Shown here: piece after piece, positions 10,644 through 63,491 of the stretch | Layout of the letters: each line of letters opens with the position of its first letter | How positions within the stretch are numbered: the first letter of the stretch is position 1 | Program-made: the position numbers and the translations under genes | Assembly: GCA_004335835.1 (NCBI GenBank) | Contig: RWJK01001591.1 | Location: forward strand, 1 to 64,000 | Length of the DNA stretch: 64,000 bases | Reading direction: 5' to 3' | Origin: Scenedesmus sp. ARA3 | Taxonomy: Eukaryota; Chlorophyta; Chlorophyceae; Sphaeropleales; Scenedesmaceae | Notes under the pieces: generated by a model | Seen by the model: the letters and a program-made list of their open reading frames with translations, nothing else | Database searches by the model: none | What the model was told of the DNA's origin: nothing

Positions 10644-13428
10644 ATGCATGCCACCAGCACTAGGGTTTCGCAGCGGGTGCTGCCCTGCTGCTTGCCTAAG
10701 AGGCTCAGGCATGCAGCTGCGAACAGCAGGAGGCGAAATGCGGGTCTGCCTGCTGCCACTGGGCCCGGTCCTGCCTCCAGTGGCACAGTGGAGTCTGTCA
10801 TATCGATCCCGCTGTTCCCTCTGTCAAACGTGCTGCATCCAGCACAGGCAGGGAGCTTGTTGGGTGAGCTATTGCTGTCTTGTGTGTGCAATGCTGTTGC
10901 TGATGGTACAAGGGACTTGGTCAGCAGTACAGAATCATGTGCAGACGTCTAGGAATGGCTTATAGCTGCATGGCACCTTCCAACACAGCAGTTGCAGCGA
11001 TTAAACAAACTGGATATTGCCGCTCACTGCACGACAGATGGTAGCCACTGAGCTGACATGGCATGGCCAGCGGACATTGGGCAGAACCTCCCCTATGTAC
11101 ACGCGGCATACCAGCAAACCACATGTGCCCTTGCACACCGTACGGCAGCTGTTCCTTGCTGCCGCATGTTCCCACCACACCAAACACACCAATACGCCCA
11201 GCAGCACATGTACCTCCCCTCACCACCACCCCTTCCGCACGCCTGCACGCCCTTTTCCACCCCGCCACTCTCTCCCCGCAGTATTTGAGCCTCGCTACCT
11301 GGCTCTGTTCAGGGACCTGCAGGCAGCAGCGCCGCAGGGCAGCAGAGCCAGTGAGGCAAAGTTTGCATTCGGGCACATCCTGGCAGCTGGAGCCGCGCCG
11401 CCTGCATTGATGCAAGACAGCGTCGGCGGGCTGCCTGCCTGCGGCGTGTGCGCGACTGTGAAGGGCATCGAGGAGCTTGAGAACGGCCGGCTGCAGGTGG
11501 GTTGCTGGGGTTTCAAGCGGGGTTTTGAAGGGTAGGGTTTTGAAGGGCAGGGCAGGGTTTGTGAGTTTGTGAGGGCATCGAAGAGCTTGAGAACGGCCGG
11601 CCGCAGGCGGAGTGAGGTGTATGGCTTGGGGTCAGGTAGGGTTGTCAGGGGTGGGGCACGATGTGCCACTGTGAGCGGCATCGAAGTAGGACAACGGCCG
11701 CCTGCAGGTGCGCTTGTAGATCAGCTGTGCATGTGATGGCTTGTCAGGGGCAGGGGCCTGGCTGAGCAGGGATTGAGTTCCTTGCTAGTGCTGCTGCCCG
11801 TCTGGGTGAGCCAGCCGACATGAGTGCGATGCACGCACCAGACAGGCAGGCCAAGCACCAGCGTCATTACAGCAGGGTCCACGCAAACAGCCGCGCCACC
11901 GCCGTATACATGAGCAACAAACGATTGTCCTACGTCTGTCATATACATGAGCAGTATTGTATCTGCTCCTCGTTGTGGCGCTTGCACTTGCAGGTCAGCT
12001 ACCAAGGCTGGCGCAGGTTCAAGCTGCTGACAGTGGACCACGATTCCAAGCCCTACCCCATGGCAGCAGCCACATGGATGGATGATGACACAGCCTCTCT
12101 CAGCCAGGAGCAGCAGGCAGCAACATATGCATTGGAGCAGCAGGTGTACGGCCTACTGCAGCAGGTTGCCAGTTATATGCGGCAGCTAGAGCAGGGCTCT
12201 GCTGCTGGGGCAGCAGTAGCGGCGCCAGCGTCTGGGCCTACCGGGTTGCACGGCAGCAGCAGCGGTAGTAAGGCGCAGCAGCGTCCGCTGTTGCCTGACA
12301 GCGTGCTGCTGTTTGCGCCGCTTCCTCCAAGCCGGCAGCAGTCTGTGGCTGATTACCTTATCAAAGCAGGTAGGAGCTGAGCTGGTGTGCGGCGGGTGAG
12401 GGTGTGCACGCATGTACACGTGTGGGTGCCATTTGGCCTGACAGCGGGACACTGTGCGCAAATACAGGCAGCGAGCGCCCAAATCATAAACACGCAATGT
12501 CTGTCATCTGCGGTGCATAACAAGTTGTAACACCAGTTGCCTGTCCATTGCCCGTTTGTTATTGCGCTGCTGCAGGTGGCAGCACTGGTGACAAGATCGC
12601 CACCTGGCAGCGCATGGGCAGCGTGTACGGCCAGACCTCCAGCAAAAAGAAGCCGCCACAGGACCCCTACCAGGTGGGGCGCCTGGGCACTGCTAGCATG
12701 CCTAGTAAGCCTTTCGTACCTCCGCTTCGGTCGAATGCTTCCATGTGCTCTGCAAGCTGAAAATTCTGCGAACTCCCTGCTAATTGCCTGCACTGTGATG
12801 CTCTCTGTGACAGCATCAATGCACCTTCAGACGAGACAACTGCTGCAGGCGCAAGGTGCAAGAGTTGGTTGGAGGCAGTCAACAGCAGCTTGAGGGAGAG
12901 GCATTCTGATTCCGCATGTGTTGCTGGTGCGCATGCAGCATGGGCAGCCGGTCAATGGTCAAACCAGGGCCGCCAGGATCACCTTAGAAGCAGGCTAGAG
13001 GTGATTAGGATGCCTGTGCACCTGTACCAGGCGTACTTTGGACATACAGCAAGGTTTAGCAACACAACACTTCCGCCTTCGGCCATCACCTGCTCTTACA
13101 TAAGTGAATATACACACCTGCTCATGCCACGCATCCTGCCACTCCCTCTGCTGCTGTTGCACCGCTCACCAACAAAACAATTCTGTCTATGAACACCTTC
13201 TCGCACCGCTGCCAGGCCGCCCGTGACCAGCTGGGCAAGGAGCGCCGCCAGGAGCTGTTCAGCTTTGCTGCCGCGTCAGTGCTGGAGCTGGGCCTGCCTG
13301 AGCGGCTGGCGCTGCTGCACTGCACCGACACGGCGGCGCGGCTGCAGTACGTGGCTGCTGCTGTGCAGCCGTTCCTGGCTGACCTGGTGGCCCGGGTGAG
13401 CCTGCAGCAGGCCATGGTGAAGCAGTGA
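10644..13428 (+). CDS. Stand-alone LON substrate-binding (N-terminal) domain protein, probably plastid-targeted
   Basis: Five exons, 10644-10863, 11282-11496, 11994-12369, 12576-12673 and 13216-13428, all with GT-AG introns, join to 373 residues. The LON N-domain signature is split by intron 1: IPLFPLSNVL (55-64) then VFEPRYLALF from residue 74, matching 'PLFPL..V..P......IFEPRY' of Lon/LAN domains. FGHILA, CATVKGIEELENGRLQ and YQGWRRFKLL follow, then a helical part ending in LFSFAAASVLELGLPERLALL and DTAARL. No AAA+ or Ser-Lys protease domain follows, as in plant one-domain relatives such as At1g19740. The first 45 residues are Arg/Ser/Ala-rich with few acids, as expected for a transit peptide. 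Proposed role (inference): a substrate-recognition or adaptor protein in the chloroplast. The coding ends of exons 2 and 5 are repeated in flanking non-coding DNA. Confidence 0.85.
11574..11710 (+). repeat. Two extra copies of the exon 2 end of the LON-domain gene inside intron 2
   Basis: The exon end and donor at 11464-11500 (GGCATCGAGGAGCTTGAGAA then CGGCCGGCTGCAG/GTGG) recur at 11574-11610 and, more diverged, at 11677-11710. The first copy has lost GT (GCAGGCGG), while the second keeps CTGCAG/GTGCGC. The homology of the second copy extends upstream into the exon (CACTGTGAGCGGCATCGAA). Confidence 0.85.
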
Positions 13429-13583
13429 GGCTGCAGTCGGCTGCTGATTGAGTGGTTTCCCAATGAGCCTGCAGCAAGCCATGGTGAAGCAGTAAGGTGG
13501 CACAACTAGCTGCTGCTTGGAGTGCCACTCGGGTTGTGTAGAATGAGCCGTGGGCCCGCCTGCAGCAGGCCATGGTGAAGCAG
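13395..13583 (+). repeat. Three copies of the C-terminal codons of the LON-domain gene, two of them beyond the stop
   Basis: The last codons (GCCTGCAGCAGGCCATGGTG then AAGCAGTGA) at 13398-13428 recur at 13467-13494 with a TAA-like end (AAGCAGTAAGG) and at 13559-13583 with the stop altered to CGA. The copies are diverged by a few bases, so they are not a simple assembly duplication. Confidence 0.9.
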
Positions 13584-14117
13584 CGAAGGTGGAGGTGTGA
13601 AGTGTGGTGCAGGTGTTGCTTGATGAGCGGCGGTGTGTGTGCGATGACATCGTGGTACATGCAGTCCTGCATGCAGGTTACAACTTGACAGGAGCAAGGT
13701 GTTGTATCATATGAGCAGCAGAGATTGCCGTGCAGTTTTTAATATGGTTGTTTATACTGCGCGAGCTCTGCTGGGTGCTTTGCACCTGGCAACCCCTTTG
13801 CCACCCTTGCATGTGTGCTGTGGAGCCGACTATGTATGTAGCACAGTGTATAACAGAGCCTGTGGTGGGGTGCTGCACTGGGCTCAGTGTAGGTTTATGT
13901 ATGCTGTGTACACATCAAACATGAATCGTCCTATTTACATCATGTCCATCACTTTTGACTACCAGGCTGACGACTGGCACTGCCTGTGCATACACATGCG
14001 CTTGGACAGTGCGGTGTCTGTTTGTAGTTGACTGGCTTCCCTTTGGCTGTTTGGGTGGTGTTGCCTAACGACATTCCCAACGTTGATGTGCATGCTACAG
14101 TTGTAATGGCAGGCGGC

Positions 14118-14148
14118 ACGTAGTATACTACGTAGTGCACTACGTAGT
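14118..14148. repeat. Overlapping perfect palindromes
   Basis: ACGTAGTATACTACGT (14118-14133) and the 22-bp palindrome with centre TGCA at 14137-14138 (14127-14148, built from ACTACGTAGTG and its complement) overlap. They could extrude as a cruciform. No adjacent gene end is near enough to call a terminator. Confidence 0.85.
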
Positions 14149-14297
14149 GCTGGTCACAATCAGCAACTGTGGCCGCACATTGCAATGGCAGCCGGCGCGT
14201 AGAGTGCTGGTCACATTCAGCAGCATACATAGGTGCTCTGACACCGGCACATGAAGAGCAAGAATTCATGTGCAATTCACACAGATGCACGACTCAG

Positions 14298-14328
14298 TAG
14301 AGCAGCCAGTACGGTACTGGCTGCTCTA
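14298..14328. repeat. Perfect inverted repeat, 15-bp arms with one-base centre
   Basis: TAGAGCAGCCAGTAC is followed by a single G and then its exact reverse complement GTACTGGCTGCTCTA. The arms show no mismatch. The nearest recognised genes end about 0.9 kb to the left and 1.3 kb to the right. Confidence 0.9.
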
Positions 14329-15305
14329 GCGACGGCTCTAGCCTCTGGTTGATGTGTCATTACTGTTACAGACAGTATGTGTGAACAGTATGCAATCATT
14401 GCATACATGGCGCCGGCAGCGCCAGAGGTGGTGACACACCATCGTATGCTGATGCCAAGCATCACCACAGCCACATCTCCTCAATCCTCTTGACAAAAAC
14501 CACTCCTGACCTTGCTGATGCAAAGCAGCTAATAACATCAACATCGCAAAGCCATGTGACACACTGACCTGCGCTCCCCGCCGGGCCAACATGGCCGTGC
14601 TGCCATGCATGGAGCAACCACAACAGCCGATTGGTAGCTGCTGCGCCACGCAGACATGCACTCAGTGCACCTCACTGCAAGCGCTGATCAGTCACAACAC
14701 GCGGCTCCGTCACACCAAGCATCATAATGATCAGCCACAGTTGCCAACATCTCTATGTACAGTTTGACGAGCCCCTCAGTTGAGGCAAGCCCACCAAGCC
14801 ACTCCCCTCAGCCCCCTCCACTGCCGCTGCCAGGCAAACAAAAAAACACGCAAATGCAGCAACACACGCTGCACTCCAGTATGCTGCAAGCTGCATGCAG
14901 GGCTACCCCAAAACAGCACTTGTAAAGAGCATAATAATGTACAAGGCATGCCAGTACAATCGAGCCTGGCTGCTGCAGCTGCAGCAACCAGCCCTGGCAA
15001 GCACTGGCATGCGGAAAAGAGCACATACACAAAAAGCAGACAGCAGCTGCGCATGCGAGAAAGCCAACATCGCTGCTGCCGCACTACCACCACCACGAAT
15101 CTGACGCTGCTCAACCAAAGGCAACCGCAGCCTCTTTCGAAGCGCATGGGTCACCCCACAAGCAGCATGCACGCAATAGCCCCGGTGACGATTGCCAAGC
15201 GCTGCCCCGCTGCAGCAGTGCACAGCTAGCTGCAGCACACTTGGCGGCACGCAGCATGATAATGTAGCAAAGGTAGCAGGTATGATTATGTCACACGGTA
15301 ACAAA

Positions 15306-15355
15306 ACTGGCGCGCATCATCTGCATCAACACTGGCGCGCATCATCTGCATCAAC
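15306..15355. repeat. 25-bp perfect tandem duplication
   Basis: The unit starting ACTGGCGCGCATCATCTGCA and ending TCAAC occurs twice back to back, with a third partial ACTGGA start. Confidence 0.9.
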
Positions 15356-15597
15356 ACTGGACACGCCCGCCCACATGTCCCCCTAATCAGCGGCTGCAGG
15401 ACAACTGCCCCAAGCGGCACACCTACAACATCGCTTGGAGCGGAGTGTTGCTGCAAGCCCTTTCAGGCCAGTGGCAAACAGCACATACATCATCATCGCC
15501 TGCCGGGCCACTTGAACGCCAAGCACGCAGAGCAAAAGCACACACCGCACTGCACACACAGCACAAAACGCAGCACCCCATACAGCGCATCATGTTA

Positions 15598-18500
15598 TCA
15601 CCACGTCTCGTGGCTGTTGTCCTTGGTCCAGCCAAAGCGGCTGCCCTGCGGCTTGCTGCTGCTGCTGCTGCCCGCTGCCACGCTTGCTGCCATGTCCCAG
15701 CGCACCTCCAGCCCCCGCAGCGTGTAGCCCACCACCATCAGCCAGAACATGACCTTGGCCAGCTCCTGCAGCACAGCCAGCAGCAGCAAGGCAGATTCAA
15801 CACAACTGCTTGCAACAGGTTTGCAAGAGGGGAGCTGTGGCGTGTAAACACCACCATCAGCCAGAACATGACCTTGGCCAGCTCCTGCAAGCACCATGCA
15901 GAGCAGCATAGAGCAGCAGAGTCAGTACTAACAGGTACTGCAGTTGCTTGCAGGAGGTTTGCAGGAGGAGGGCTGCGGTGTGTACACACCACCATCAGCC
16001 AGAACATGACCTTGGCCAGCTCCTGCAAGCACAGCCAGCAGCAGCAAGGCAGATTCAACACAACTGCTTGCAACAGGTTTGCAAGAGGGAAGCTGTGGTG
16101 TGCGAACACCACCATCAGCCAGAACATGACCTTGGCCAGCTCTTGCAAGCACAGCCAGCAGCACACGTGGAGTCAGGTAAAAATGGTCGAAGAGTTGATT
16201 TTAAAATGCAACTGCTTGCTGGAGGTGAGTGCGGCCTGTGCAGTCGAACACAAAACAACAAGCAGCACACAGCAGATGCTTGATCAACCGGCGAACGCCA
16301 CGACTGCAACATTTTCATTCACACCAACAAGCACATAAGGCCCTGCTGACTACTGCAGCACCGCAGCCGCACCTGCGCCGTGCAGTCGCTGCCCGCCCTG
16401 CTGAGGCTATCCCTGTCGCCTGTGCCCATCAGCCTTGCCACAAAGCTGTCCATGGCAGCAGACACCTCAGGGCCCACGCTGCCAGTCAGCTCCGCAATGC
16501 TGGCTGCATCCAGGCAGCGCAGGTAGTCTAGGAGCTCGTTTGCCGCCTCTTCCAGCAGCAGTAAGCCGCCTGCGGGGCCAGCCGGCCGGCCAGGACCCTG
16601 CAGGAATGCGGCGAGGTGCACATGTCAGGGATAACTGTGCCGCGTGGCGCGTGAAAAAGACAAGGTTGGAGGTGTGCTGTGCTCTGCACTTTGGTTACGG
16701 CCGGCAAGTTGCCTGCATGGAAATGCGCTGGGCGTGTTTGAGTGGCGGCGACCAGGCAGCACACGTAGCCTAGAAACTCGTCAGCCGCCTCTTCCAAAAG
16801 TAGCAAACCACCTGCTGGGGCAGCCGGCCGGCCAGGGCCCTGCAAACGTACAAGTGGTACAGCGAGTGTGCAGCCATGCATGATACGTGCTGAATCACCA
16901 TAAATGCGTGAGCCAGAAGGTGAGGTGTGCGGACAACTGTCACTAATGCGCTGGTGGTTGTGCCACCAAGCAGCTGACACAGCCGCATTGTAGCAGCGGA
17001 TCCCGCGCAGCCTCAACTGCTGCGCCACTCAGCTACCTATGCAGCTGCTGTGACTGCTGGTAGCGTGGAAGCTGTTCCACCATTCCTCCACCAAGTGTGG
17101 TGGAGATTGAGGGAACAGCAGCACGCCGACAGCAGTCACCGGCATGCACAAGCAGCTGAGTGGCCCACCACCACCACAACATGCTCTTGGATGCAACCAC
17201 TGTTGTGAACACTGACCCATGCACCAAAGCACGTGTGAGGAGCATACCGCCACAGTTGTGGGTGAGCGCATGTCACGGCCATACGGCAGCCATTCGCTTG
17301 CAGCATCAGAACCGCATAGCTGCTCACAGCCACCACCCGTATAAACCCAAGACAAGACAACCTATGAACCTCCACGCAATAGCTGTTTCAGCAAACCCAG
17401 CCAAACCACAAACGGAGTGGATGTCAGGCATACAGCGCTAGCAGGAAGAGGGCAATACAAGGATTGTAGTATTTAGCCGTGATGCAGATGAAACACAATG
17501 ACGCAGCCCCTCGTGCAGTGTTGGATTCGACTCACCTGCAGCGCACTCTGCGCCGAAACCGGCACTGGCAGCTGCCGCCCCTCTGTCAGCATTGGCTGCT
17601 GCAGGGCACTAAACAGCTGCTGCTGCTGCTGCTGCTGCTGCTGCGCAGGCTGCGGTGGCTGCTGCTGCTGCTGTTGCTGTGGCTGCTGCTCCAGCTGCTG
17701 CCGCAGCCGCGTGACCTCTCCTTCTAGCATCTCTATGTAGCTGACAGCATCTAGTGCCTCTACTCCGTTCTCCTTGTGCCACAGCAGCACATCACCCTGC
17801 ACAAAGACAACCGGCAGGACAGATGCAGCAGCAGCAGCAATGTGTGAGTCAGCCCCATACGAACAGAAACAAGGCAGCTGGGTAGCATACAGAATGAGAC
17901 TGACTGCCAACATGGTACCACAGCTGCATGGTCGCTGCCGAGAAAATAGCACAGTGCTGCTGGCAATTCATGCAGAGCATGTTACCAGCCCAACGCGCCG
18001 CAGCTAGTCACTACACCCCACCTGTGAGTCGCCCCAGCTGCGCATAAAAACACAATGAAACCGCCACAAGCTGCACACAAATGTCGATGCTTTGTCACTC
18101 CTGCTGCTGACTCTGCTGCAGCCCCCTGCTGCTGACTCTGCTGCAGCCAGCTGGCACCACCCGCACCTGCACGCGCGACTTTTGCACCCCGGGTGCATAC
18201 AGCTCATCATCAAGCACGCTGCCTTGGGGAGGCGCTGACTGGGTGCGCTGCAACGCTGCGTTGCTGCTGCTGCTGCTGAAGGGGCCGCTTGCTGCTGCTT
18301 GCCCTGCTGCTACTGTGCTACCGCCCATGGCAGCAGCAGGTGGCATGCCGCCAAGTGCAGTGCGCAGCTCCAACCTGTGACAGCAACAAGGCGGCAACAA
18401 GCACGATTCACGGTATGGTGGTGAGGTCATGCCAGCCGACAACTGCACACAAGAGCTTGCGACGCTGCTTCAGAGCAACCGGACACGGTACAGGAGGCGT

Positions 18501-18929
18501 CACAAACAGCATTGCATGCTGCTGCTGCTGCTGCTGTTGCGGCTGGGTGATTCATCGTGCAGTCCATCCGCCTGCAGCTGTGGCATATATCCACCCTCTT
18601 GTACACGCCTGCTGCTGCTGCTGCTGCCGCTGCTGCTGGCCGCATCTATACTGCGCGCTCCTGAACATGCACCCCAGCATGAGCACGCACAAACAGCACA
18701 ACCCTCTGCAGCTAATGCTGTGGCGCGTGCATCTGTAATACACCCTTGCTGCTGCTGCTGCTGCTGCTGGGCGCACCTGTACTGCGCGTTCCTGAACATG
18801 TATCCTGTCATGAGCACGCTGAGCATGAGCTGGCTCATGTTCTCGCCCACAGTGCTGATGGTCACCGTGAAGAACTGCGGCGGCAGCGTGCCCAGCTGCA
18901 AATGAAGAGGGAAACATCATTTAAAAGAC

Positions 18930-18970
<41 letters not shown>

Positions 18971-31807: not shown

Positions 31808-33079
31808 TCACAGCACCATGCAGCAGCTGCTGCTGCCCTTCACCCACATAACCAGCTGCAGGAACCCCTGCGCCTTCATTGCCATGACGTCAATAAGCCT
31901 GCAGCAGATAAATGCTACAGCTTCCCGCCGTGTCCTGCTACTGCCTTGCCGGCATGCTGCGCCTTCCGTGTTGCCTTACGCTGTCGCATTCATCGTTGCA
32001 TTGCCAGCTGCTGGCTCAGCAGCAGGCGGCGCAGCAGCCCTGTCGGCACGGCTGCACTGCGCTGTCAAGCTCATCGAAGCATTGCCAGCTGCTGGCTCAG
32101 CAGCCGGCGGCAGCAGCCATGATTGGCATCGCTGCCTCACGCTGTCGTATTCATTGTTGCATTGCCAGCTGCTGGCTCAGCGGCAGGCGGCGCAGCAGCC
32201 AGAATCGGCATAGCTGCCTCAGGCATAGGCGCCTCTGCAGCAGGAGCCCCTGCACCAGCAGCACCAGCTTCCGCAGCAGGAGTGCCAGCGCCTGCTGTGC
32301 TGCCAGTCAGCACAGGAATGACCCGTCCGTCTGCACAGTTGAGGGCTGGCGGTGGCTGGAAGTTTGCGCAGCGCTGCGCGGCGCCGAGCAGCACTGGCAC
32401 GAAGGGGCGCACCTTGGCCTCCTGCTCGGCTGTGGAGTTGCAGATGGCGTTGATGAGCACGGGGATGCAGTTGTTGTCGATGATCTGGAGCAGCAGCAGC
32501 AGGAGGAGGGGGAGCAGCAGCAGCAGTAGCAGCGGGTAGCGTGAGCAAGGAATGTGCAGCCGGTAAGCAGCGGAACCAGAGCACACAGGTGGATGTGCAG
32601 CGCTGCATCTAATGCTGTTGCGGTTGAATTCCAAACTGACAGACAAGGATCATGTGCAACCAGCAATTAGCATGCAAGGTTGGGTGACAAGCAAAACCTG
32701 TCGCTGGCTCTGTCCGTCACCCAGCCCAGATTTTGCCAGCAAACGGTACACCTACGTAGCTGTAACATCGCGCAAGGCTACAGGCTCCTGCGCATGCACC
32801 TGTTCATCGCCCGCCATGTGATTTGTCTGACTGCCGAGGTACATCACACAAGTGTACACACCACCACCTACCTGCTTCATCTGCTCTGAGCAGGCAGTGG
32901 AGCAGCAGCCCTGCTTCACCTCCAGGCTGCCATCAAATGCACACGTGGCCAGGCCTTGCACCTGGGCGCTGCAGGGTGAGGGAGGGCCTGAGCTGATGAG
33001 GGGCGAGAAGGTGGAGATGAGGGCACCCGTTGAGTACTCCTCCTTGGTGTACTTGACCACGGGGATGGGGCAGTCTGAG

Positions 33080-44700: not shown

Positions 44701-46652
44701 TCTGCTGCCCTTGCACGAACTCTGCGCCGTCTGGCCTCACGCATGGCATCCACGTTGTCGCGGAGCTTTCAACATCAACATGCATGACTCTGGTGACCTG
44801 TGCTGACGTCTGGCTGCTTGCTTCTGCTTGCAGGAACGCTGCTCTATCTGGCCTCACGCATGACATCCACGCTGACGTGGAGGGCAACGACAAGATCCAG
44901 GAGATGCACGACGATGCTGAGAAGTTTGACCCACGCACAGAGGAGGTGTTCAAGGTGGGTTACAAATGCTTCACTAACACAGTAACGACAGGCCTTCAAC
45001 ATTAGCCGGGCATGACGCACATGTGTGCTATTCCATTCCTGCACCTTGCTTGTGTGGAGCTTGCTAGTGCCAGCAACACATGCAGCGCGCGCTGTTCCCC
45101 TGCAGCCTGTTCATTAGGTGCGAGCAAACTGGTGACCATCATGCACTGTTACTAACACATGTAACTAACACATGTTACTTGTCACTACCTGTGCTGTGTT
45201 GCGGCCTGCAGGTGCTGCAGGTCATCTCTGCGTGCGCCATGGCCTTCGCCCACGGAGCCAACGATGTGGCCAACGCCATCGGCTCCTTCGCTGCTGCCCT
45301 GATGGTGTACAAGACCTTCAAGGTGCCCTCCTCTAACAGGTGAGCCACTTGCGTATTCTCCATCATCTGCAGCTGTTTGCTAAGCTGTGATCCTTCGGAT
45401 GCTGGCTACCGCAGTGCAACGCATTGATTTGCAACCCATTTGCGACGTATGCTTGTGTGGCGGCTGGAACTCAACCCTTGACGACTGCTCAGAATTTAAA
45501 AGCACTCTCGCGACACCACCTGATGAAGCACGCGTAGCTGCCAACCATTTCTTTCGGGCAATGCCCTGCCCAACATGACACCTGCGGCTGCCTGTGTTGC
45601 TACTTCCTGCAGTGACACCGAGCTGTGGATCCTGGCTCTGGGAGGCTCTGGTATCGTGGTGGGCCTTGCCACATATGGCTACAACATCATGCGCGTGCTG
45701 GGCGTCAAGTGCACACACATCACACCCTCTCGCGGGTGAGTGCGGGCGCATCTCGGCTGTCTGCAGCTTGTAGTAGACTGGCTGTGCCAGTTTCAGGTGG
45801 CAGTGCATGACCTGGCATGATTGCGGCATGCTGCGGAGCCGCACACGAGCGAATGCACCAGCACACAGCACTGCTCACAGACAGCTACACTGCTGTCGAG
45901 GCACCACCTGACCCATGCCCCTGTGTTGACTGTCGTTGCTGCTTGCTGCTGCCAGTTTCTGCATGGAGCTGGCTACCTCCTTTGTGATTGCTGTGGGCTC
46001 AAGTTTTGGCCTGCCCCTGTCCACCACCCACACCATCACTGGAGCCACTGCTGGTGGCGGTGTGGCTGAGGGCCGCTGGAAGGCACTCAACTGGCTGCTG
46101 TACGCCAAGATGTTTGCCGGTGGGTTTAAACCTGCTGTTTGTAGCTTGCAGGATGTGCTTCGCCTGCATGTGGACATACATTTTGGTGTGATTTCAGCTG
46201 CTGTTGCTTGTACAGCATCCCACCATGTGTACGGCAACCCTGATTGTGCTGCCGCTGTAGTTCTACTTGCTGCCGCTGTGCTGACAGTTTGTTGTGCTGC
46301 TGTGTTCTCTCCTGCAGGCTGGGTGTTCACCCTCATCATCACCGCTGCCATCTCAGCAGTCATCTTCCTGCTGGGCACCCACACTCCCTCCCAGATCGAC
46401 CAGGTGCAGCTGCGCAACTACCAGGAGTCGATGCTGCAGCAGGGCAACCAGACCCTGGCGTTCCTGGCCGCGGAGAACAACAACCTGAAGCCTATGAACA
46501 TGCCGCTGATGGACAGCATTGTAGAGCTGGGCACGCAGAACAGCGACCTGCTCGAGAGCAAGCTGTGGCTGCCGGCGGAGAATGTGACCAGCAACTTTGA
46601 CAGCGTGCAGAGCCTGCTGATGAACTTCACCACCTTTGCAGTGCCCAAGTAA
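41702..46652 (+). CDS. PTB: PHO4-family inorganic phosphate transporter (PTB type)
   Basis: Fourteen exons: 41702-41713, 41883-41906, 42067-42103, 42322-42348, 42618-42688, 42947-43076, 43286-43354, 43616-43872, 44218-44522, 44834-44954, 45212-45339, 45613-45735, 45956-46119 and 46318-46652. They give 600 residues in one frame. Both PHO4 signatures are present: [18 protein letters not shown] (from residue 25) and [17 protein letters not shown] (from 365). The repeats [15 protein letters not shown] and [17 protein letters not shown] are the paired half-domain motifs. A hydrophilic loop between the halves (exons 9-10) and several membrane helices fit a plasma-membrane Na+- or H+-coupled Pi symporter like Chlamydomonas PTB proteins. 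The first four coding exons are only 12, 24, 37 and 27 bp. In exon 10 the start is duplicated upstream. A TGTAA poly(A) signal lies at 46790-46794, about 140 bp after the stop. Confidence 0.96.
44711..44763 (+). repeat. Degenerate copy of the exon 10 start inside intron 9 of PTB
   Basis: Matches 44829-44880, sharing CTGGCCTCACGCATG and CATCCACG. The acceptor CAG/GAAC is changed to CAC/GAAC, so the copy should not be spliced. Confidence 0.88.
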
Positions 46653-46774
46653 ATCTTGAGCGCAAGCGGTGTGGACAAAAGCCACACGGATATGCATTGT
46701 GTGAGCATTTGATTCCGCATGCGAGACAGCGGAGACGGCGTGTGTGTGATGCATGCTCGGGGGTTGTTTGCCTG

Positions 46775-46961
46775 CCGAGCGTGGGTGCTGTAATGCTATC
46801 AGCAGCATGGCGCTTGAGCTGAATCCAATGTGAGCGCAGATGCGGCATTTTGTCAGTGGTGCGCCTATCGAGCGTGGGTGCTGTGGATGCTATCAGCAGC
46901 ATGGAAGCCACGAGCTGAATCCAATGTGAGCACAGAGGCGATATTTTGTCAGTAGTGCGCA
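46775..46961 (+). repeat. Direct duplication of about 93 bp in the PTB 3' flank
   Basis: Both copies contain CGAGCGTGGGTGCTGT, GCTATCAGCAGCATGG, GAGCTGAATCCAATGTGAGC and ATTTTGTCAGT. The first copy carries the TGTAA poly(A) signal; in the second it reads TGTGGA. Confidence 0.9.
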
Positions 46962-52288: not shown

Positions 52289-52374
52289 TCATACCATGCC
52301 CTCTGCACTGCCTGCCTGCACTTCCGCTGCCTCCCCATCTGCCACACTTGCTGCTGCTGACGCATCACCCCCAA

Positions 52375-52420
<46 letters not shown>

Positions 52421-54022: not shown

Positions 54023-55912
54023 ATGCAGTTGTTTGTGAGGGATAGCGAGACGCTGGTGCTGGACGCATGCGAGCAGACAACCATCGCGGAGCTGAAGGCA
54101 GCCTATGCAGCACGCAAAGCCTACGGTATCGATGCTGAGCAGGCTTTGGTAAGTTTACAAACCTTCTGTTCTTACGAGTCACGATATGCTGAGCAGGGTC
54201 CGGCCTGCATGGCAGCAGCAGCAGCATATGCCCTCACTGTGGCCTGGTCCGTCCTGTTTCTTTGCATGGTAGCTGCTCTTTAGAGACCCGCTATCGGATC
54301 CTCAACTTCGCAACACACAGCATACATGTCGCCGTGCCATCATGTGCATCACAGCACCCGTGCTCCAGCTCATGCTGTCTCCATGCCTGCACATTCTGCA
54401 GGTCTTGCTGCACCACAGCAGGCAGCTGCAGGACAATGCCACGCTAGCAGAGGCAGCACTGTACAATGGCGCTACGCTGTCAGTTTGCAGCAGGCTACGA
54501 GGCGGCGGTGGCGATGGCGGCAGCACGGGTGCGGAGAGCAGGAGCTGTTACTTGGAGATGTATGCGCAGCGCAAGCCTGATAAGGTGAGTGCTGGAGTCT
54601 TGGCATGCTGCAGGATTGTGTCTGAGATACAGTTGTGTATCGCTTCGCGTCTGCAGTGCATGCCATTGCAACCGGCAACAGCAGTAGCAGCCTAGACGTT
54701 GCTTATCTGCTGCATGTTGGTCCTGTCCGTACGGTGTGCAGCAGGTGCCTGCTTCTCTGTTGGTTGATTGCTCCTGCATGGTCAGCAGCTCTCAGCATGG
54801 CAGATTTGTACAATCAGCAGTTTGATTGCGCGGGCGGTTCAGCCGCATGCCGCACATTCACAGCACTCACGTGTGTGCACACGCACAACAATATAACCAT
54901 ACCTCCTCTCTCGCATGCCGCCCTGATGCACACAGGTCAACCCTCTAGAGGAGCCGCTGGCGCGCAGCACACTACCCACATCTAAGCTCATGCACAAAAG
55001 CACTGTGACCTGCAAATAATCACACACCATTCCGTCTCCTGCTGCTGCAATGTGCAGGTGAACCCCCTAGAGGAGCTGCTGGCTCGCAGCACGCGCTGCC
55101 GGCTGTCAGGCGAGCGGCTGGCCCCACCCTGCGTGGCAGATGAGCTGGGCAGCCTTTTCAACAAGGAAGCAGTAGTACACGCGCTGCTGAACAAGACCAT
55201 GCCTGCAGCACTCTCGCACATAACGAGCTTGAAGGCAGTTGTTAATCTCAAGCTGGAGCCTGCACACAAGGTCGGCGGCAGCAGCAGCAGCAGCAACGGC
55301 AAAAACGGCAAGGCCCACGGCAGCAGCAGCAGCAGTGATGCGGCAGACTTCCAGTGCCCGGTGACTGGGCTGGAGTTGAATGGGCGCTTCCAGTTTGTCA
55401 TTCACCGGTCGACAGGGCAGGTGCTGAGTGAGCGGGCGCTGAGGGAGGCTCCTGCAGCAGTAGAGGAGCTGCTGGGGGGCAAGTGGGCAGCAGATGATTT
55501 AGTACCTGTGAATCCGCAGGGGGAGGAGCTAGAGAAGCGGCAGCAGGCGGTGGCGGCAGCAGCAGCAGCGGAGCGCGCAAAGAAGAAGGCTAAGAAAGCA
55601 GGCAAGGAGAAGGAGAGGGAGAAGGCAGCAGCAGCAGCAGCAGCAGCATTGGATGGTGCTGGTGTTGCAGGGGCAGTTGCGGATGCTGCAGATGGTGTAG
55701 CAGCAGTTGGCAGCAAGCGGCCGCCGGCGGCGCCGCCAGCAGCAGCGGCAGCAGCAGCAGTAGCAGCTGGTGGGGCAGCAGCAGCAAAGAAGCTGAAGCT
55801 TCCGGCGGGTGCGACGCCAGAGGTATATGCGTCCATCTTTTCAACAGGAAAGCCGAAGATGAAGGAGACCTACTGCTGCAGATCTGCTTCGGGCAGGGGC
55901 CTTGGAATGTGA
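54023..55912 (+). CDS. RTF2: RTF2 (replication termination factor 2) with N-terminal ubiquitin-like domain
   Basis: Three exons, 54023-54148, 54402-54584 and 55058-55912, join in frame to 387 residues. Residues 1-77 align with ubiquitin over its full length: MQLFVRDSETLVLDACEQTT, then RQLQDNATLAEAALYNGATL, ending exactly in RLRGG at 73-77. The RTF2 core follows: CRLSGERLAPPCVADELGSL, FNKEAVVHALL, SHITSLKAVVNLKL, and the second half FQCPVTGLELNGRFQF, STGQVLSERAL. These are the variant RING-like halves of the family. The C-terminus is a Lys/Ala-rich coil with KRPP and AAKKLKLP basic patches. RTF2 acts at stalled replication forks in yeast and animals, and the plant protein, which also has a Ubl extension, affects pre-mRNA splicing. 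Exon 3 has a degenerate duplicate of its start in intron 2. Confidence 0.93.
54931..54970 (+). repeat. Extra copy of the exon 3 start and acceptor inside intron 2 of RTF2
   Basis: CACAG/GTCAACCCTCTAGAGGAG followed by CCGCTGGCGCGCAGCAC matches the true exon start at 55053-55092 (GCAG/GTGAACCCCCTAGAGGAG...). The copy keeps AG and would encode VNPLEEPLARST in frame before its sequence diverges to a TAA about 18 bp later. Confidence 0.9.
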
Positions 55913-56456
55913 TACAGCCGAGCATGTTAATTTGTACAGGGGAAGAGGTCTGCTGGGGCGCACCGGCAGAATCTGTGCTGCTGTGCTGCTGTTGTATACT
56001 ATTGTTGGTGCTGCAGTTGTTGCTGCTGGGCTGGTTTCTGGCCGAGCAAAGGGATGTGAGCGTCCTTGGGGAAAGTTTCTTTGCGTTGTGCATCACGCGC
56101 CGTGCGTGTTACTGCATGGTCAGTTGAACCCTGACAGCCTGAAACCTTGGTGTTCAGAGGCTTTACCAAGTAACTGAGCGTGGCTTGCTGTGGTGTTCGG
56201 CTGTTTAGGACGTGCCTGCAACAGCTGTTCAGGTGGTTCACGGTCACGAACGAGAAGCAAACCCCTGCTTGGGTGCAGCACAAGCAACTGTCTCAGCACT
56301 GTGCCATCATATCGATCAGCACAACTGCAGCTCACAGTCTGAGAACTTGCGACAGAACGCGCATTCCCTATCGATTGTGCCCATGCATGCGTGTATGGCG
56401 ATGCAAGCAGCTTGAGTGAACAACTTTGAGTGCCACAGCAGCAAGAGCCGGACAGC
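55913..56456. other. Intergenic between RTF2 and PRCC
   Basis: Both neighbours are on the plus strand. Contains the RTF2 3' UTR and PRCC promoter/5' UTR; no other gene is supported. Confidence 0.5.
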
Positions 56457-57473
56457 ATGGACCTGCTTACGGGCTACGGCAGTGGATCGGACTCTGAAAC
56501 TGAAGTCGACGTCCCGAATCGTATCCTGGCCAGCAGAACGGCCGTCGAGGCAGCCCCAGCTGTGACTAGCACAGCACCAGCAGCACCTGCAGCAGCAGCA
56601 AAGAAGCCCAGCCTCTTCGGCAGCTTTCCAGGCCCTAAGCATGCTGCCTCTGCTGCTGCACCTGCCGTAGAAGCAGCTCCTGGGCTGCCTCCTGGCTTCT
56701 TCGATAGCCCTGCAACAGCAGCACCACCCGAGAGCAGCAGCGCTGCAGCACCTGCAGGCCTGCCCAGCAACTTCTTTGATGCAGCACCCAGCAGCACAGC
56801 AGCAGCGGCTGCAGCTGAAGAAGCAGAAGCAGCGCCAGGGCCAGCGCTGCGGCCGCCTCCTGCAGCAGTAGCAGACCTCCCGCAGCCAAGTGACCTAAAG
56901 CTGTGGTCAAAGCTGCCAGCTGCAAACAAGCGCAAGGTCACCCTGCGGCCCAAAATAGACATGGCACTGCTGGCAGCATCTGACAGCGATGAGGATGATG
57001 CAGCACCAGCAGCTAAGAAGGCAAAGCCGGCAGCAGCAGCAGCAGGCAAGCCGAGTATACTTAGCTTCCTGCCGGCGCCAAAGCATGCGCCTAAAGGGCC
57101 AAAGGGCGGTGGCAGCAGCAGCGGCATGCTAGGGGGTGGAGGTGGCACGCGGCTTGACACAGGCGGTGGCCTTAGCAGCGAGCAGCAGCAGCAACGCAGT
57201 GCGGATGATGCAAGGCAAGCAGCGCCCGCCCCAGCAGCTATCAGCAATGAAGCCTTCCGCATGCGGCCAGCTGCAGCAGCAGCAGCAGCAGCAGCAGCAG
57301 ATGATGGCAGCAGCGGCGGCTACGGGTACGCTGCACAGCAGTACCAGCAGCAGCAGTACGATGCGCAGCAGTACCACCAGCAGTATGCTGCAGCAGGCAG
57401 CGCTGGCTATGACTATAGCTCCTACTACCAAGGTGCTGCCGCTACAGCCGCACCCGCAGCAGCAGCAAGCCGC

Positions 57474-57510
<37 letters not shown>

Positions 57511-57890
57511 TGCATCCTGAGGAAGCCCTCTTGCAGGAAGCTCTGCAGGCAGAAGCAGCAAAGGCAGCGCGGCGCGGCGCTGGCTCTGGCAGCTCCCAAT
57601 TAGTCATGCCTGACATCCAGTTCAAAGAGGTCAAAGCAGATGCAATCAAGTATGTGGATCCAGCGCAGCGCGAGGCCGCGCAAGGCATGCGGGCCGCGCT
57701 GGGTGCCGATTACGCTGTGAAGCTGCGCGCCGAGGCTGCGCCGCATACTGGCAGCAAGCTGGCGCGCAGCAAGCACCAGATCGGCACGCTGTTTGCGAAT
57801 GCCAAGCTGCGGGAGCTGGAGGTGCTGGAGAACAGGGCCGCGGGCATGAAGTCCAAGGCTGAAACGGCCGGCAAGTACGGCTGGCGCTGA
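56457..57890 (+). CDS. PRCC: PRCC-family nuclear protein
   Basis: A single exon of 477 residues, the only intron-free complete gene in the window. The start MDLLTGYGSGSDSETE resembles the short acidic N-terminus of PRCC proteins; an in-frame Met nine codons earlier (56430) is an alternative. Pro/Ala-rich segments with repeated GLPPGFFD and GLPSNFFD, LKLWSKLPAANKRKVTLRP and DSDEDD follow, then Tyr/Gln-rich low complexity. The C-terminal block IQFKEVKADAIKYVD ... KLARSKHQIGTLFANAKLRE and KAETAGKYGWR matches the PRCC C-terminal domain (human end: RRKHQITYL..QAK.RE......QAKYGF). PRCC is a nuclear protein associated with splicing factors and mitotic checkpoint control in animals. Two diverged copies of the last coding stretch lie downstream. 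Confidence 0.9.
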
Positions 57891-58398
57891 GGGCTAGCTT
57901 CAAGCTAGCTGCAAGTCCAGGGCACAGCAGCAGCTGACGCGTCTGGCGTGTTCGTGGGCAGCGTATTCTGCAGCAGCTGGCGGCCGCGGCATACGGCAGC
58001 AGGTATTTGGCAGCTGTGTAGCTGCATGGGTGTTTGAGGTGCTGCTGCCAAGCTGCGGGAGCTTGAGGTGCTGGAGAACCGCGCAGCGGGCATGAAGTTC
58101 AAGGCGGAACAGCTGGGAAGTACGGCTGGCGCTGAGGCGCCACTTGGGCCATGGGTATGTACAGTGAGGCAGCAGTTGGCGGTGTGTAGGAGAGCAGTTC
58201 TTCTCAGCAGCAGGTAATGTCTATGGCATGTACGGCAACACGATTTGTGGCAGCAGGTCTTATGGCAGCAGGTCTTATGGTAGCTGTGTAACTGCATGGG
58301 TGCTGCTCAAAGCTGCTGGAGCTGGAGGTGCTGGAGAACAGGGCAGCGGGCATGAAGTCCAAGGCGGAGACGGCCGGCAAGTACGGCTGGCGCTGAGG
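57801..58398 (+). repeat. Three copies of the PRCC C-terminal codons, two beyond the stop
   Basis: The original end (57801-57893, GCCAAGCTGCGGGAGCTGGA ... TACGGCTGGCGCTGAGGG) recurs at about 58047-58137 and 58308-58398. Copy 1 has a one-codon deletion with frame change (GAACAGCTGGG) and copy 2 is nearly exact, including TGA. Sequence 5' of both copies (GTAGCTGTGTARCTGCATGGG) is also shared, so the unit is about 260 bp. Copy 2's leader contains TGTAA, a green-algal poly(A) signal. Confidence 0.93.
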
Positions 58399-59399
58399 GC
58401 CAGTTCCCAACAGAAGCGAGATGCGAGACGTTTGCCGATTGCAGAGGCGGTTGTGTTGTTGCAGCAGCTGACGGGCCTGGCGTGTACAGCAGCAGCTCAT
58501 TGTGCAGCAGCTGTGGTGTATTGATAGAGATGGGGCATTTGGAGGCAATTAACAGCATGCGAGCAGTACTTATGCCTTGCCGAGAGCCAGTGAGCGTGGG
58601 TGTGGTTCAGCACAGCGTAAGTATGGCTGCGCAATGTCGCACTTGAGATTGTGTCCGTTGTGGCGTCATGGCAGCTGGAAGATGCACCTGCCGCAAGTTG
58701 GTGCACCTATGTGTCCATCTGCTGGTCTATTGTACCCATTTGCACATCCTGTTCATGCATATGACCCCAGCAGGAGCAGTGCGGTGCTCAGGGGATGAAC
58801 AGCCTGTTCATCCCCTGAGCATCCGGCCTGTGTCTCATGTGATGCTGTTGTACACCTATACTTATGTGCTTGTTCCACGCATCATTACGGCCAAGCTGCT
58901 CGGGTCAGGGCTCATCAGTATCATGTAACAGTTACAGCGCTAGCAGTGACCAGTGACGGCTGGCCGGTTGCCATGTATACAGCAATGTCTTTCCTGCAAA
59001 TCTTTACACAGCAGCTGCCACCCAAAACACATCACTATGTCACCATGAGCACAGCGTGTCCGCCGGCGGTCAAAGACTTTGTGCACTTCTCTGTATGGTG
59101 TGTGTCACGCTAGCAGCTGGCATGCACAACCGCCAATACTTGAGTCACTACTGGCAGGCTGCAAAACGCAGCTGGCACCGCAGTCAACTGCAGCAACATT
59201 TCTGCCAATGTCGCTGCAGCAACAGCAGTCACTTGGGCAGTGCTGTTTGCAACCGCATGCAACCACATTCGCTGCCATACACAACGCGCAAGTCCAACAT
59301 GCAGCAGCTGTGGCTTGATGAGTAACATGATGATGATGATGCAGCAGCTGTTGGCAGCCATTCAACTCCACCGTGGCGTCTGTGACAGCGTGCACATTT
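58399..59399. other. Convergent intergenic region between PRCC and the AT-hook gene
   Basis: No coding frame with recognised features. A perfect 17-bp-arm inverted repeat at 58786-58820 is listed separately. Confidence 0.5.
58786..58820. repeat. Perfect inverted repeat, 17-bp arms with one-base centre
   Basis: GCTCAGGGGATGAACAG, then a single C, then the exact reverse complement CTGTTCATCCCCTGAGC. It lies midway in a convergent intergenic region and would form a strong hairpin in RNA from either strand. Confidence 0.93.
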
Positions 59400-60608
59400 C
59401 TAAGTCTCCGCACCAGCAGCAGCAGCTGCAGCGCGGGCTGCAACACGTGCAGACTTGGAGGGAGAGGGCGCTGGCGGCCCTGCTGCTGCTGCTGGTGGTG
59501 GTGGTGGCATGCCTTCACGGCCGGCTGAGGCAGCTGCTGCCTTGCTGGGGGTGCCTGTTGCAGAGCAGAAGCAAGCAGCCGTGCAGAGCAAGAGGCTCGG
59601 GTGCTGCAAGTTTATCAGGGCATATTATTGAGAGGTGCACAGGAAATTCAAAATCCAATTTGAGCACTCGGGGCCTATTGCATGCAGCTGCGCGATTGGA
59701 TGCCTGCACGATACACATGCATGCAGCAAACGTATGTGTCTGTATGCAGCACTGTACACTGCAGCGTTGTCATGTGACATGACAGATATGGGGCGCAGGT
59801 ATGCAGCCAGCGCACCCAGTGCATCCGAAATACAGTGTGCAAACGGCACTGCCTCGTCTATTCGCTACCCACCTGCAGCAGCAGCAGCAGCAGCCTCGCC
59901 GGCTGGCTTGCTCTGCTTGTCTCCCTTGCTCTTTTGCTGCTGCTTGGCGGCCTTCTCTGCTGCCTTCTCCTTTGCTGCCAGCGCTGCCTCACGCGCCTCA
60001 AGCGCAGCCTGCTGCTGCTGCAGCTCCTCTAGCTCCTGCTGCTGCCTGCTGCCGTCATCTGCAGGGCACACAACAAAAGGAACACAGCAGGCAAGTGACG
60101 CAGCGCAGGGAGATGCATACCATCCCATGTTGGGGCATCCAGCAGGATGCACGCAAGACGCCAATAATATACAAGTCCCACCTGTCTCTACATGCATATG
60201 CTGCACGTGCAGGAGGTGTAGTAGGGCTTGAGCGTTTCTAACTTTGTGCGCTGTATAGGCAGCCGCCATGTACACGTGACCAGACACATGTCGAGGCAGC
60301 TTCAGCACAGGCGCAACCAGCCTCTGCTTGGGGTGCCTGCCTGCATCAGGCCTGCATGCCAACAGCACCCGCAGCAACCCTGCACCAAGCCTGTGCTGTG
60401 CGTATAGCAAGCCATGCGATGAGGCACAGCTGATGCTGCAATGCTTACCTTCTTCTGTGTCGCCTCCATCCGCCGCTGCTGGGACTGCAGGCAGACACAT
60501 GAGCAAGCAGGCAGACACGCAGCTGAGGATACAGGACAGCAGGCCATGCGAGATTGGTTCACGTTGCAAGCTGCAGACCGGGCTACATCAACCGCTAGAG
60601 ACCCACAC

Positions 60609-60662
<54 letters not shown>

Positions 60663-63491
60663 CAGGGCCCCACCGCCAGGGCCCCACCGCCAGCCCCACC
60701 CCCACCCCTACGCTGTGCACAGCACACACTGCAGCTGTCGCCCCCCGAAACTCCAACGCGGACTGTCATGCACACAGTATACTCACGTGCCCCCTTGCCC
60801 TGTGCGAAGGCCATGGCCAGTGCATATAGGTCGTCAGCACGCTGTCTTTCGGCCTTCACCTGGCCCTCCTTGGCCTGCAGCAGCTGCTGGTACAGCGCCT
60901 CCTGCAAGCAAGAAGCAATATGGTGCAGCAACACAGCAGCAGGCATCTCAGCATCTCAAGCCAAGCAGCAGCGCGTGTTGGCCTCCACCTCGCCCTCCTT
61001 GGCCTGCAGCAGCTGCTGGTTCAGCGCCTCCTGCAAGCATCAGGTACCAGAGCACACCAACGCAGCACACAGAAGAGCTGAGCACTTCTGATACAGCAGC
61101 TTTAGAGGCGCGGCAGCTGCGGCGCTTCCTTCGCCTCTCATGAAAGCTGCTGCCCATGCTCCTGCAGCATTGCAGCGCCCGCACGACTCTCGACAGACGT
61201 GCTGTGTCGCGCAGCAGTGATTGCGTGCCAACGCAGTGTGCGTTAGTTGCAGGGCACCCACCAGCAGCCAAGCCATCGACCACAGGTGGGCGCCGCTAGT
61301 TGTTTGGCAGATCTATGCATGACTTGGATGTAACCACTGCCAGAGGCCGCGCAGCAACGGTCATCATTACAGCAGCAGCAGCAGCGGCGGCAGCATACCC
61401 AGTTGAAAATGCTGATAATCACCCTCCCCTGGCCTGCTGCCCACCTTGTCGTCTGTCTCAACGATGATGATCAGCAGCAGCAGCAGCAGCAGCGGCATCA
61501 ACATGAACGCATCACACTGGTCCAACCAGCCCGACTGCCTGCTGCCCACCTTGTCGTCTGTCATGCCGCCCGTGCTGCTGCGGGCCTTCTTGCTGCTGGC
61601 AGGCGTGGCTGCTGACTTGGCCTTGTTTGCGGAGCGCCGCTGCCGCCGGGAGCCCTGCAGCGACACCAGACGGGCCCCACGCAGCAGATAGAGTAGTATC
61701 AGCAGCAGCAGCAGCAGCAGCAGCAGCATGCAAACAGATCAGGCAGGCAGCGGGCTGGTGTTAGAATCTGTATGTGTGCCACTAGGCATTGCGCCATGCG
61801 CGTAGCGGAGCGCCGCTGCCGCCGGGAGCCCTGCAGCGACACCAGACATGGCCACCGAAGCAGACAGCGCAGCAGCAGCAGCAGCAGCAGCAGGCAGGGT
61901 GAGGAGCAGGCCGCGGGTCAGAGTAGACAGATGCATCACTGCCTTGTGGCGCAGATGCATGCATACATGTGTGCACACATCCAAAAGCAACGGCATTCAG
62001 GCACTGTGGACATACGATTCAACCAACGGCTCATACATGCACTCTCAACAGCGCCTGCTGTTTCAGTCTATGCTCGCTGCTGTGGCAGCAGCCAGGGGCG
62101 CGCCATGTCACTGGCGCGATGTGTGTTTGCACGCCTTACCTCATCATCGCCTTCCTCCTCAACCTCCGCGCCATCCTCCCCATCTGCTGCTGCTGCTGCT
62201 GCCGCATAATACACCGGTCACCTCTGTACATGCAAAATGCTATCAAAATGCTTTACATGCAACAACCAATCTCACTGTCAACACCTACCTCATCTCCCTC
62301 CTCCTCATCCAATTCCACATCATCCCCATCTGCTGCTGCTGCTGCTGCTGCCGCCTTGGCCTGTGTTGCGCTCTTAGGCGGCCGCCCCGGCCCCCTGCGC
62401 TGCTGCTCGCTCTTGGGCGGCCTGCCTGGCTTGCGCTTCCCTGGCTGTGGCTGTGCCACATCCAGCCTCACATCGTCCAGCTCACAGTCAGCACCCAGCC
62501 CTTGCTCCTGCAAGCAGTGTGATTGGTGCAGTGAGTGAAGAGTGCTGCGGGCGCAAGGGCTGCGCCTGCCTCACATCGTCCTAGTCACAGTCAGCACCTA
62601 GCCCTTGCTCCTGCAGGCAGTGGGGTTGGTGCAGTAGTCGTCAGCTGGCACAAACAGCAGTGCTGCAGTGTACAGGGGTGTGCCACATCACGTGTCACGT
62701 CGTCCAGCTCACAGTCAGCAGCCAGCCCTTGCTCCTGCAGGCAGTGCGGATGGTGCAAAGAAAGACAGTCTTGCAGGTGCGCTCAGAACTCACAGTCAGC
62801 ACCCAGCCCTTGCTCCTGCAAGAAGTGTGGTTGGGATTTGTTTAGCGGTCAAATGACACACACAGCAGTACTGCAGGCACAAGGCTGTGCCACATCCAGT
62901 CTCACATCGTCCAGCTCACAGTCAGCACCCAGCCCTTGCTCCTGCAAGCAGTGGGGTTGGTGTAGAAGTTGTCAGCTGGCACACACAGCAGTNNNNNNNN
63001 NNNNNNNNNNNNNNNNNNNNNNNNNNNNNNNNNNNNNNNNNNNNACTGCAGGCACAAGGCTGTGCCACATCCAGTCTCACATCGTCCAGCTCACAGTCAG
63101 CACCCAGGCCTTGCTCCTGCAAGCAGTGCGGATGGTGCAGTGATCGAACAGCGCTGCGGGCATTGTCTCAGTGATAGTCAGCACTCAGCCCCTTGCTCCT
63201 GCAGGCAGTGGGGTTGGTGCGGTTATACACCGATGCACTCAGGGATAGTTGGTGCTTTCAATATTATGGAGTACAAAACGAACGCATGCAAACCAACGTG
63301 TGAGGCAAAGTACGATAAGGCTTCAAAAGATGATGCAGTTGCAGACTACTGCATGGCATGCTGCACACACCTTTGCCAGGACCCTGACTTTGTGGTACTC
63401 CTTGTTGGCAGCGTCCTCATCACCGTTGTTCTTTGCAAGCACATCAGCCCACAGCTGAGGGAAGGCACGCTCCCTGCAACACACCAGCAGC

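Follow-up and report, generated by a model that had tools for sequence, protein, structure and literature searches.

Introns of a scenedesmacean green alga carry arrays of exon-end copies that diverge like coding sequence

Introduction

Intronic sequence that is excluded from the protein is expected to drift. What, then, is to be made of introns that hold repeated, protein-like copies of the ends of their neighboring exons? This question is raised by a 64,000-nucleotide stretch of the green alga Scenedesmus sp. ARA3 (contig RWJK01001591.1, positions 1 to 64,000; C1201:1-64000), hereafter the window. An initial annotation of the window reported duplicated exon boundaries in at least seven genes and suggested a recurrent local process that duplicates exon-intron junctions. 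We find such a process at work in the window and in most of the other contig pieces sampled, with duplications spaced in two step classes. We also find a property that the initial annotation missed: the intronic copies differ from their exon as coding sequence would, unlike debris. About one in five tested introns (58/304) hold pieces that drift at silent sites and much less at amino-acid sites.

Exon ends recur within their own introns

Genes were modeled with a purpose-written gene-finding hidden Markov model (HMM), trained on 237 kb comprising the window, the 10 kb that follow it, and parts of 18 further contigs, and then frozen for use on a 76.8-kb hold-out. The whole assembly has 87,267,035 bases in 1567 contigs; sampled contig pieces bear L codes (e.g., L021). 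The model recovers donors of the form CAG/GTGAG and acceptors of the form CTGCAG/, with a median exon of 103 bp and a median intron of 228 bp. Repeats were found by self-comparison and then mapped onto the gene models. Exon ends were probed with 45 bases from the 3' end (tail, donor side) or the 5' end (head, acceptor side). Exons shorter than 75 bp were not used as edges. Also left out were copies with homology ending more than 10-12 bases from the junction (three in the analysis of flank relatedness) and copies with less than 70% ungapped identity or containing N.

A copy of the adjoining exon end is present in 40 of 231 introns of the training set and 18 of 73 introns of the hold-out. Probes match their own intron for 23/196 tails and 24/203 heads in the training set (edges together, 47/399), and for 9/67 tails and 13/67 heads in the hold-out (22/134). 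The corresponding figures for mid-exon probes are 3/651 and 3/686 (6/1337) and, in the hold-out, 5/197. The initial annotation had named equally frequent copying of mid-exon segments as counting against its claim; on the sampled pieces, they are copied less often than edges, so this test does not refute it. Against the introns of other genes, no probe finds a match: 0/196 and 0/203 for edges (0/399) and 0/651 for mid-exon segments in the training set (0/1050), and 0/134 edges in the hold-out.

The repeats are also local and direct. Self-comparison at an E value of 1e-5 gives 169 repeat pairs in direct and 2 in inverted orientation; 161 of the direct pairs lie within 1 kb. Local repeat clusters touch the edge of an exon of at least 75 bp in 79 of 108 cases, where random placement of whole clusters expects 41.0; counting only the first pair per cluster, the figure is 72/108 against 33.9 expected. 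The view that the duplications are too regular for chance is thus borne out by both the probe and the cluster counts.

A tandem duplication lying wholly within an exon stays exonic and would be purged, so the scarcity of mid-exon copies is by itself no proof of targeting. Junction-spanning duplications might simply be retained as harmless and be easier to see than intron-only ones, and the dominance of edges would then be expected. Clusters confined to non-coding sequence speak against this neutral account, as there are 17 where 46.9 are expected; a period of 112-129 bp occurs in several of these.

Copy-bearing introns are longer (median length 476.5 versus 274). Density is uneven, from 0/16 introns in L009 to 7/11 in L006 (score 46) and, in the hold-out, from 0/18 in L028 to 5/10 in L031 (score 40). 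Across pieces, L009 and L028 have no copies, while about half the introns do in L006, L021, and L031, without apparent cause. Just past the window end, a monooxygenase gene (L004 6441-8127; C1201 70441-72127) carries exon-edge copies in three introns.

Arrays advance in two step classes

Tail copies lie downstream of the donor and head copies upstream of the acceptor, and the inner limit of the copied part is mostly common within an array. The copied exon part measures 26-146 bp. Among 111 steps, 1 is 56 bp, 78 are 79-146 bp, 6 are 163-178 bp, 26 are 213-275 bp, and none is larger. The medians of the two main classes, 123 and about 248 bp, are equal for heads and tails, and step size is nearly independent of copied exon length (r of 0.14 and -0.09). 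None of 2000 draws from a fitted lognormal clustered as strongly as the observed steps, a statistic that fixes no exact period. A strict period was rejected, because circular statistics are almost flat between 118 and 140 bp (R 0.61-0.66, best at 135); our claim is therefore limited to two step classes. Step classes near 122 and 246 bp suggest that the duplication process has a physical ruler. One further array, in L017 (7129-7945), consists of seven units, 76-94% alike, that advance by about 126 bp; every unit was called a small exon.

In young arrays, exon part and spacer are duplicated together as one unit: the L024 head array, the L021 tail array (spacers alike at 81 of 87 positions), and the L031 tail array (243-bp units). 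This makes it likely that copies are born by tandem duplication across a splice junction. In older single copies, no relation between spacer and flank can be established. Most inner spacers are, by eye, related to one another, while the flank of the outermost copy is often unrelated, with exceptions such as L006. At the 1% level, the flank is unrelated in 5/9 copies with at least 97% exon identity, 14/21 at 93-97%, 28/42 at 87-93%, and 17/18 below that.

Two spacers, from L022 and L021, were searched for in the assembly and each occupies one genomic place, which led us to reject an introner or transposon origin of the spacers. Likewise, the two copies searched each match their own locus only, and a paralogue as the source was rejected.

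Intronic copies diverge as coding sequence would

We compared exon and copy in the frame of the exon for 95 copies. The proportion of differing silent sites (pS) is 0.218 and that of amino-acid sites (pN) is 0.059, giving a pN/pS of 0.27; reading the same 95 copies in the two shifted frames gives 1.28 and 1.25. The hold-out alone gives 0.22 in frame, and the two sides behave alike (0.26 for heads and 0.30 for tails). Stop codons occur in 1 of 95 copies. Because pairs inside one array are not independent, we resampled by array, which yields 0.26 (0.20-0.33, 61 arrays) for exon-copy pairs and 0.24 (confidence interval 0.16-0.35, 18 arrays) for pairs in which both members are intronic.

A constrained exon paired with neutral copies does not reproduce these values. 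Simulation of that case gives a pN/pS of 0.51±0.06 for exon-copy pairs, 0.78±0.10 for copy-copy pairs, and 8.9±3.2 copies with a stop, against 0.26, 0.25, and 1/95 observed; an omega of about 0.25-0.45 in the copies fits. In exon-copy pairs with alignable spacers, differences sum to 106.5/533 silent sites (0.20), 74.5/1720 amino-acid sites (0.043), and 671/3771 spacer sites (0.178), with 154 spacer indels; in copy-copy pairs, they sum to 47.5/238 (0.20), 35.5/851 (0.042), and 433/2596 (0.167). Silent-site divergence thus matches that of alignable spacers, and amino-acid sites are far lower. Indels in 71 copies (1174 codons), 8 frameshifting and 2 frame-keeping, are per base far below those in spacers.

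Splice sites are retained as well. AG is kept in 39/44 acceptor copies and GT in 25/30 donor copies. Among copies with unrelated flanks, donors (n=21) score a median of 2.35, compared with 2.04 for real and -1.28 for random sites (p 0.71 for lower), and acceptors (n=19) score 2.5, slightly below real sites (3.36; p 0.027), with random sites at -2.03. As these copies are largely single or outermost, one reading is that they are older splice sites that were once in use.

Early counts had looked near neutral and seemed to favor debris: differences fell 98:74:202 on the three codon positions, after setting aside exon-internal protein repeats in L013 and L016, and 138 amino-acid-changing and 159 silent codons were counted among 1174. 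They were superseded by the silent-versus-spacer comparison, the simulation, the frame comparison, and the resampling. Together with the splice-site scores, these results make the mere retention of harmless junction-spanning duplications very improbable. The proposal in the initial annotation of slippage or break repair, if followed by neutral decay, conflicts with the in-frame pN/pS, the silent-versus-spacer comparison, the simulation, and the copy-copy results. Its other suggestion, selection for decoy splice sites, is not supported as stated, since decoys need no constraint at the amino-acid level. Its ceiling of about 20% divergence is too low, as some copies exceed it.

The ratio changes with divergence: pN/pS is 0.12 in the youngest copies and rises to 0.27 and then 0.35 as copies diverge. 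It is as if a coding-like difference preceded neutral decay. Copies could have been born diverged, through illegitimate joining of two diverged versions of a gene (from another lineage or a hybrid ancestry) that left a foreign exon end and its intron flank beside the resident one. The unrelated flanks of copies with high exon identity (at least 97%), which have real-looking splice sites, fit such an origin. However, neither of the two copies searched has a second place in the assembly, arrays of up to six diverged units would require many sources, and the steps would go unexplained; we regard this origin as improbable.

Confirming proteins lack the copies

Judged by sequence, the alga is probably Tetradesmus obliquus or a very close relative: its eIF3i gene (C1500) matches T. 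obliquus at 99%, and its TPR protein (C1400) matches three T. obliquus proteins, P0241-P0243. Two of these three may be both haplotypes of a single diploid strain; strain UTEX 3031 has been called diploid (PMC12899622), and we infer a tie between that diploidy and the paired proteins.

Proteins confirm 18 of 31 splice junctions tested (10/14 in L021, 3/10 in L022, and 5/7 in the monooxygenase gene of C1201 beyond the window end). Among the unconfirmed junctions are small exons called wrongly, a second gene that lacks a reference protein, and a single site differing by one amino acid. These 18 confirmed introns hold 19 copies, and none of the 19 is present in the confirming proteins. For instance, P0001, whose 1140-base source contig we read as a spliced transcript, skips three copies in the monooxygenase gene.

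Some copies agree with other proteins at residues where their exon differs. Two monooxygenase copies encode L and E, as does the relative NREL 46B-D3, at sites where the exon has M and P (by eye). This suggests that the copies kept the older state at those sites; their other differences are, by eye, new in the copies. Two head copies in L021 encode M, as do P0241-P0243, and the exon of this assembly has I.

Some transcripts might splice the copies directly as alternative exon ends or small exons, so that translation conserves them. The constraint in frame and the good splice sites are consistent with such use. In the annotated T. obliquus isoform P0246 (OEZ86_005727), the peptide YPDTHKNAAGHTVTMM agrees in all but one residue with an intronic head copy of L021; when that copy is read as coding, it forms an in-frame insert of 48 bases that has its own acceptor and is followed by a GT. 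Head copies also lean toward in-frame donors (34:26:18 by length modulo 3). However, tail copies have no excess of in-frame acceptors (47:65:57), the open frame past the copied part resembles random intron, and the 19 copies are missing from the proteins that confirm their introns. We regard direct use of the copies in splicing as unlikely. Cassette exons were rejected as a general rule on the absence of an in-frame mini-exon signature and on the random-like frame beyond the copy: both splice sites and a frame-keeping length are not found together in general, with P0246 a possible exception.

P0246 also bears on whether the arrays were created in assembly, for example by joining two haplotypes or gap fillings in tandem. 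One array does contain an N gap of 52 bases, and a fixed step might reflect read length. However, the arrays comprise as many as six units, whose divergence is graded and which carry indels, and P0246, which matches one copy, was annotated on a different assembly. We consider an artefact extremely unlikely.

Exon-edge copies in the genes of the window

The repeats reported in the seven genes of the window stand as a whole when placed on gene models, although the exon structure at the end of the Cys-rich gene is ambiguous and more than one of the PRCC repeats near the stop codon may be the used end. Pfam supports five of the seven genes; the AT-hook-like and Cys-rich proteins match no Pfam family. 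We take the gene labeled PTB in the initial annotation to be the PHO4 phosphate transporter gene, as no other identity was found for it.

Table 1. Exon edges and their copies in the window. Distances are from source to copy; percentages are identities.
Feature	Position	Strand	Basis
LON substrate-binding domain gene exon, 3' edge (donor side), source	11410..11496	+	gene model, Pfam
LON gene copy of the exon's last 33 bp, in the following intron, 110 bp, 94%; GT changed to GC	11574..11610	+	self-comparison, splice-site scoring
DUF760 gene exon, 5' edge (acceptor side), source	15605..15765	-	gene model, Pfam
DUF760 acceptor-edge copy, 119 bp, 96%	15840..15887	-	self-comparison
DUF760 acceptor-edge copy, 257 bp, 98%	15972..16032	-	self-comparison
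DUF760 acceptor-edge copy, 377 bp, 100% over 36 bp; AG lost (AA)	16107..16145	-	self-comparison
DUF760 gene, another exon, source of the 242-bp copy	16373..16597	-	gene model
DUF760 acceptor-edge copy of exon 16373..16597, 242 bp, 97 bp long, 80%	16743..16844	-	self-comparison
Cys-rich gene end, array with period of about 80; exon structure ambiguous	31972..32224	-	self-comparison
PHO4 acceptor-edge copy, 117 bp, 84%; AG changed to AC	44710..44765	+	self-comparison, splice-site scoring
PHO4 phosphate transporter gene exon, 5' edge, source	44834..44954	+	gene model, Pfam
Rtf2 acceptor-edge copy, 122 bp, 89%	54933..54970	+	self-comparison
Rtf2 gene exon, 5' edge, source	55058..55822	+	gene model, Pfam
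PRCC gene, 3' end with a segment and two relatives of it at 246 and 506 bp; a stop codon lies in the last one	57800..58405	+	gene model, self-comparison, Pfam
60-bp repeat, two units 129 bp apart, 95%; each called a small exon	60851..61039	-	self-comparison
AT-hook-like gene, copy of the 5' edge of exon 61445-61654, 176 bp, 100%	61805..61847	-	self-comparison
AT-hook-like gene exon, 5' edge, source of array	62285..62507	-	gene model
AT-hook-like array, edge copies at 103, 227, 308, 434, and 609 bp (88-100%) and a partial sixth	62548..63226	-	self-comparison

The AT-hook-like array is interrupted by the 52-base N gap, at positions 62993-63044. Elsewhere in the window, the region of the LON-domain gene has, off confident exons, three related segments of 34-37 bp at 67, 91, and 158 bp (13397-13594), and a predicted intergenic region (46770-46960) has a tandem repeat of 93-96 bp, in two copies about 85% alike, without a link to an exon edge. 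Runs of CAG/CTG trinucleotides are very common at many sites (8530-63562), including predicted exons, where they encode poly-Q, poly-A, and poly-S.

Discussion

An explanation has to account for what is observed: the copies and their steps, the duplication of whole units in young arrays, the frame pattern, the quality of the splice sites, and the absence of copies from the proteins checked. We tentatively favor local tandem duplication across splice junctions, after which exon and copies would continue to exchange sequence and the copies would act as latent exon ends, although we put this reading at somewhat less than an even chance. Its chief rivals are direct use in splicing and birth in a diverged state.

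A tandem duplication spanning a junction, with a unit near 122 or 246 bp, would place a second exon end and splice site in the intron. It would be tolerated because the splice site joined to the exon body is still usable, and further tandem duplication would expand the array. Unequal crossing-over, conversion, or deletion between direct repeats could then exchange sequence between exon and copy, and through such exchange a copy and its splice site could take over as the true end of the exon. Any copy that carries an amino-acid change, a stop, a frameshift, or a dead splice site would consequently be purged, and spacers would drift.

Exchange would together explain a kept frame, few stops and indels, kept splice sites, free spacers, likeness of heads and tails, and no relation between nearness and similarity; we infer that it is the cause of the constraint. 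The similar constraint on heads and tails fits exchange and is not predicted by cassette use. In 24 arrays, the farther copy is more exon-like than the nearest in 12, less so in 8, and tied in 4 (by ungapped identities, some of which are depressed by indels). The near copy in L024 differs from the exon at four sites, which by eye are silent throughout and which fall inside its first 33 bases; the far and near units of this array differ at 5 of their first 36 bases and at 1 of the remaining 82 (Fisher p 0.01). We read the similarity of farther copies and the L024 mosaic as signs of exchange.

Several points weigh against exchange. The L024 mosaic was chosen post hoc, and no exchange event was seen directly. 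The ratios in L007, L011, L018, and L030 are 0.77-1.81, that is, without constraint, on few changes each, and the seven copies with a lost splice dinucleotide have a pN/pS of 0.43. The rate of exchange does not fit easily: exchange frequent enough to be selectable should hold silent divergence near species diversity, yet the former is about 0.2, and by eye there is little difference between the T. obliquus proteins P0241 and P0242. Exchange also leaves both step classes unexplained.

Two other routes were rejected. Conversion by spliced cDNA would have equalized silent sites too, and these differ by about 0.2. Recursive-splicing intermediates as template would leave an AG or GT at the inner ends of copies, which by eye lack them.

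It is conceivable, if somewhat less probable than not, that the introns of this alga form a genome-wide reserve of latent exon ends, set in arrays on a ruler of about 122 bp, skipped in most messages, and held under protein-level selection by swapping with the real end or by occasional splicing in its place. If reads and relatives agree, this would be a route for plasticity of gene structure and a source of alternative exon ends and intron growth. It would also be a trap for gene annotation.

We found no description of such arrays in the literature searched, a search outside which most subscription papers and preprints fall. Several known systems share parts of the pattern. Mutually exclusive tandem exon duplication also places sequence that has splice sites and is constrained as coding inside introns; here, however, a single exon edge and one splice site are copied. 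Stwintrons are removed by two successive splicing reactions. Stwintrons and other complex introns with duplicated donor elements (PMC7138796) likewise have a functional splice element duplicated within an intron, and introners (PMC9860276) likewise affect many introns of one genome. In contrast to stwintrons, 26-146 bp of exon accompany the splice site here, and in contrast to introners, there is no dispersed family, both spacers searched being single-copy. Intron gain by double-strand-break repair with short direct repeats, as in Daphnia (PMC3443670), also leaves direct repeats flanking inserted or unrelated sequence, but the repeats here are 26-146 bp long and anchored on an existing splice site. 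Such gain would bring in sequence that the ancestral site lacks; both spacers searched here are single-copy.

A further related system is tandem genomic duplication, or internal gene duplication, that creates introns (Gao and Lynch 2009 and Hellsten 2011, as cited in PMC3443670). There too, the duplicated segment contains exon sequence along with splice signals, giving new splice options with the protein unchanged, and the young arrays here consist of adjacent direct copies of a whole unit. We find no intron gained at a new coding position, as the copies lie inside introns and the 18 confirmed junctions give normal protein. Unlike the products of intron-creating tandem duplication, the copies described here occupy introns that already exist, form arrays with two step classes, and are under constraint at the amino-acid level.

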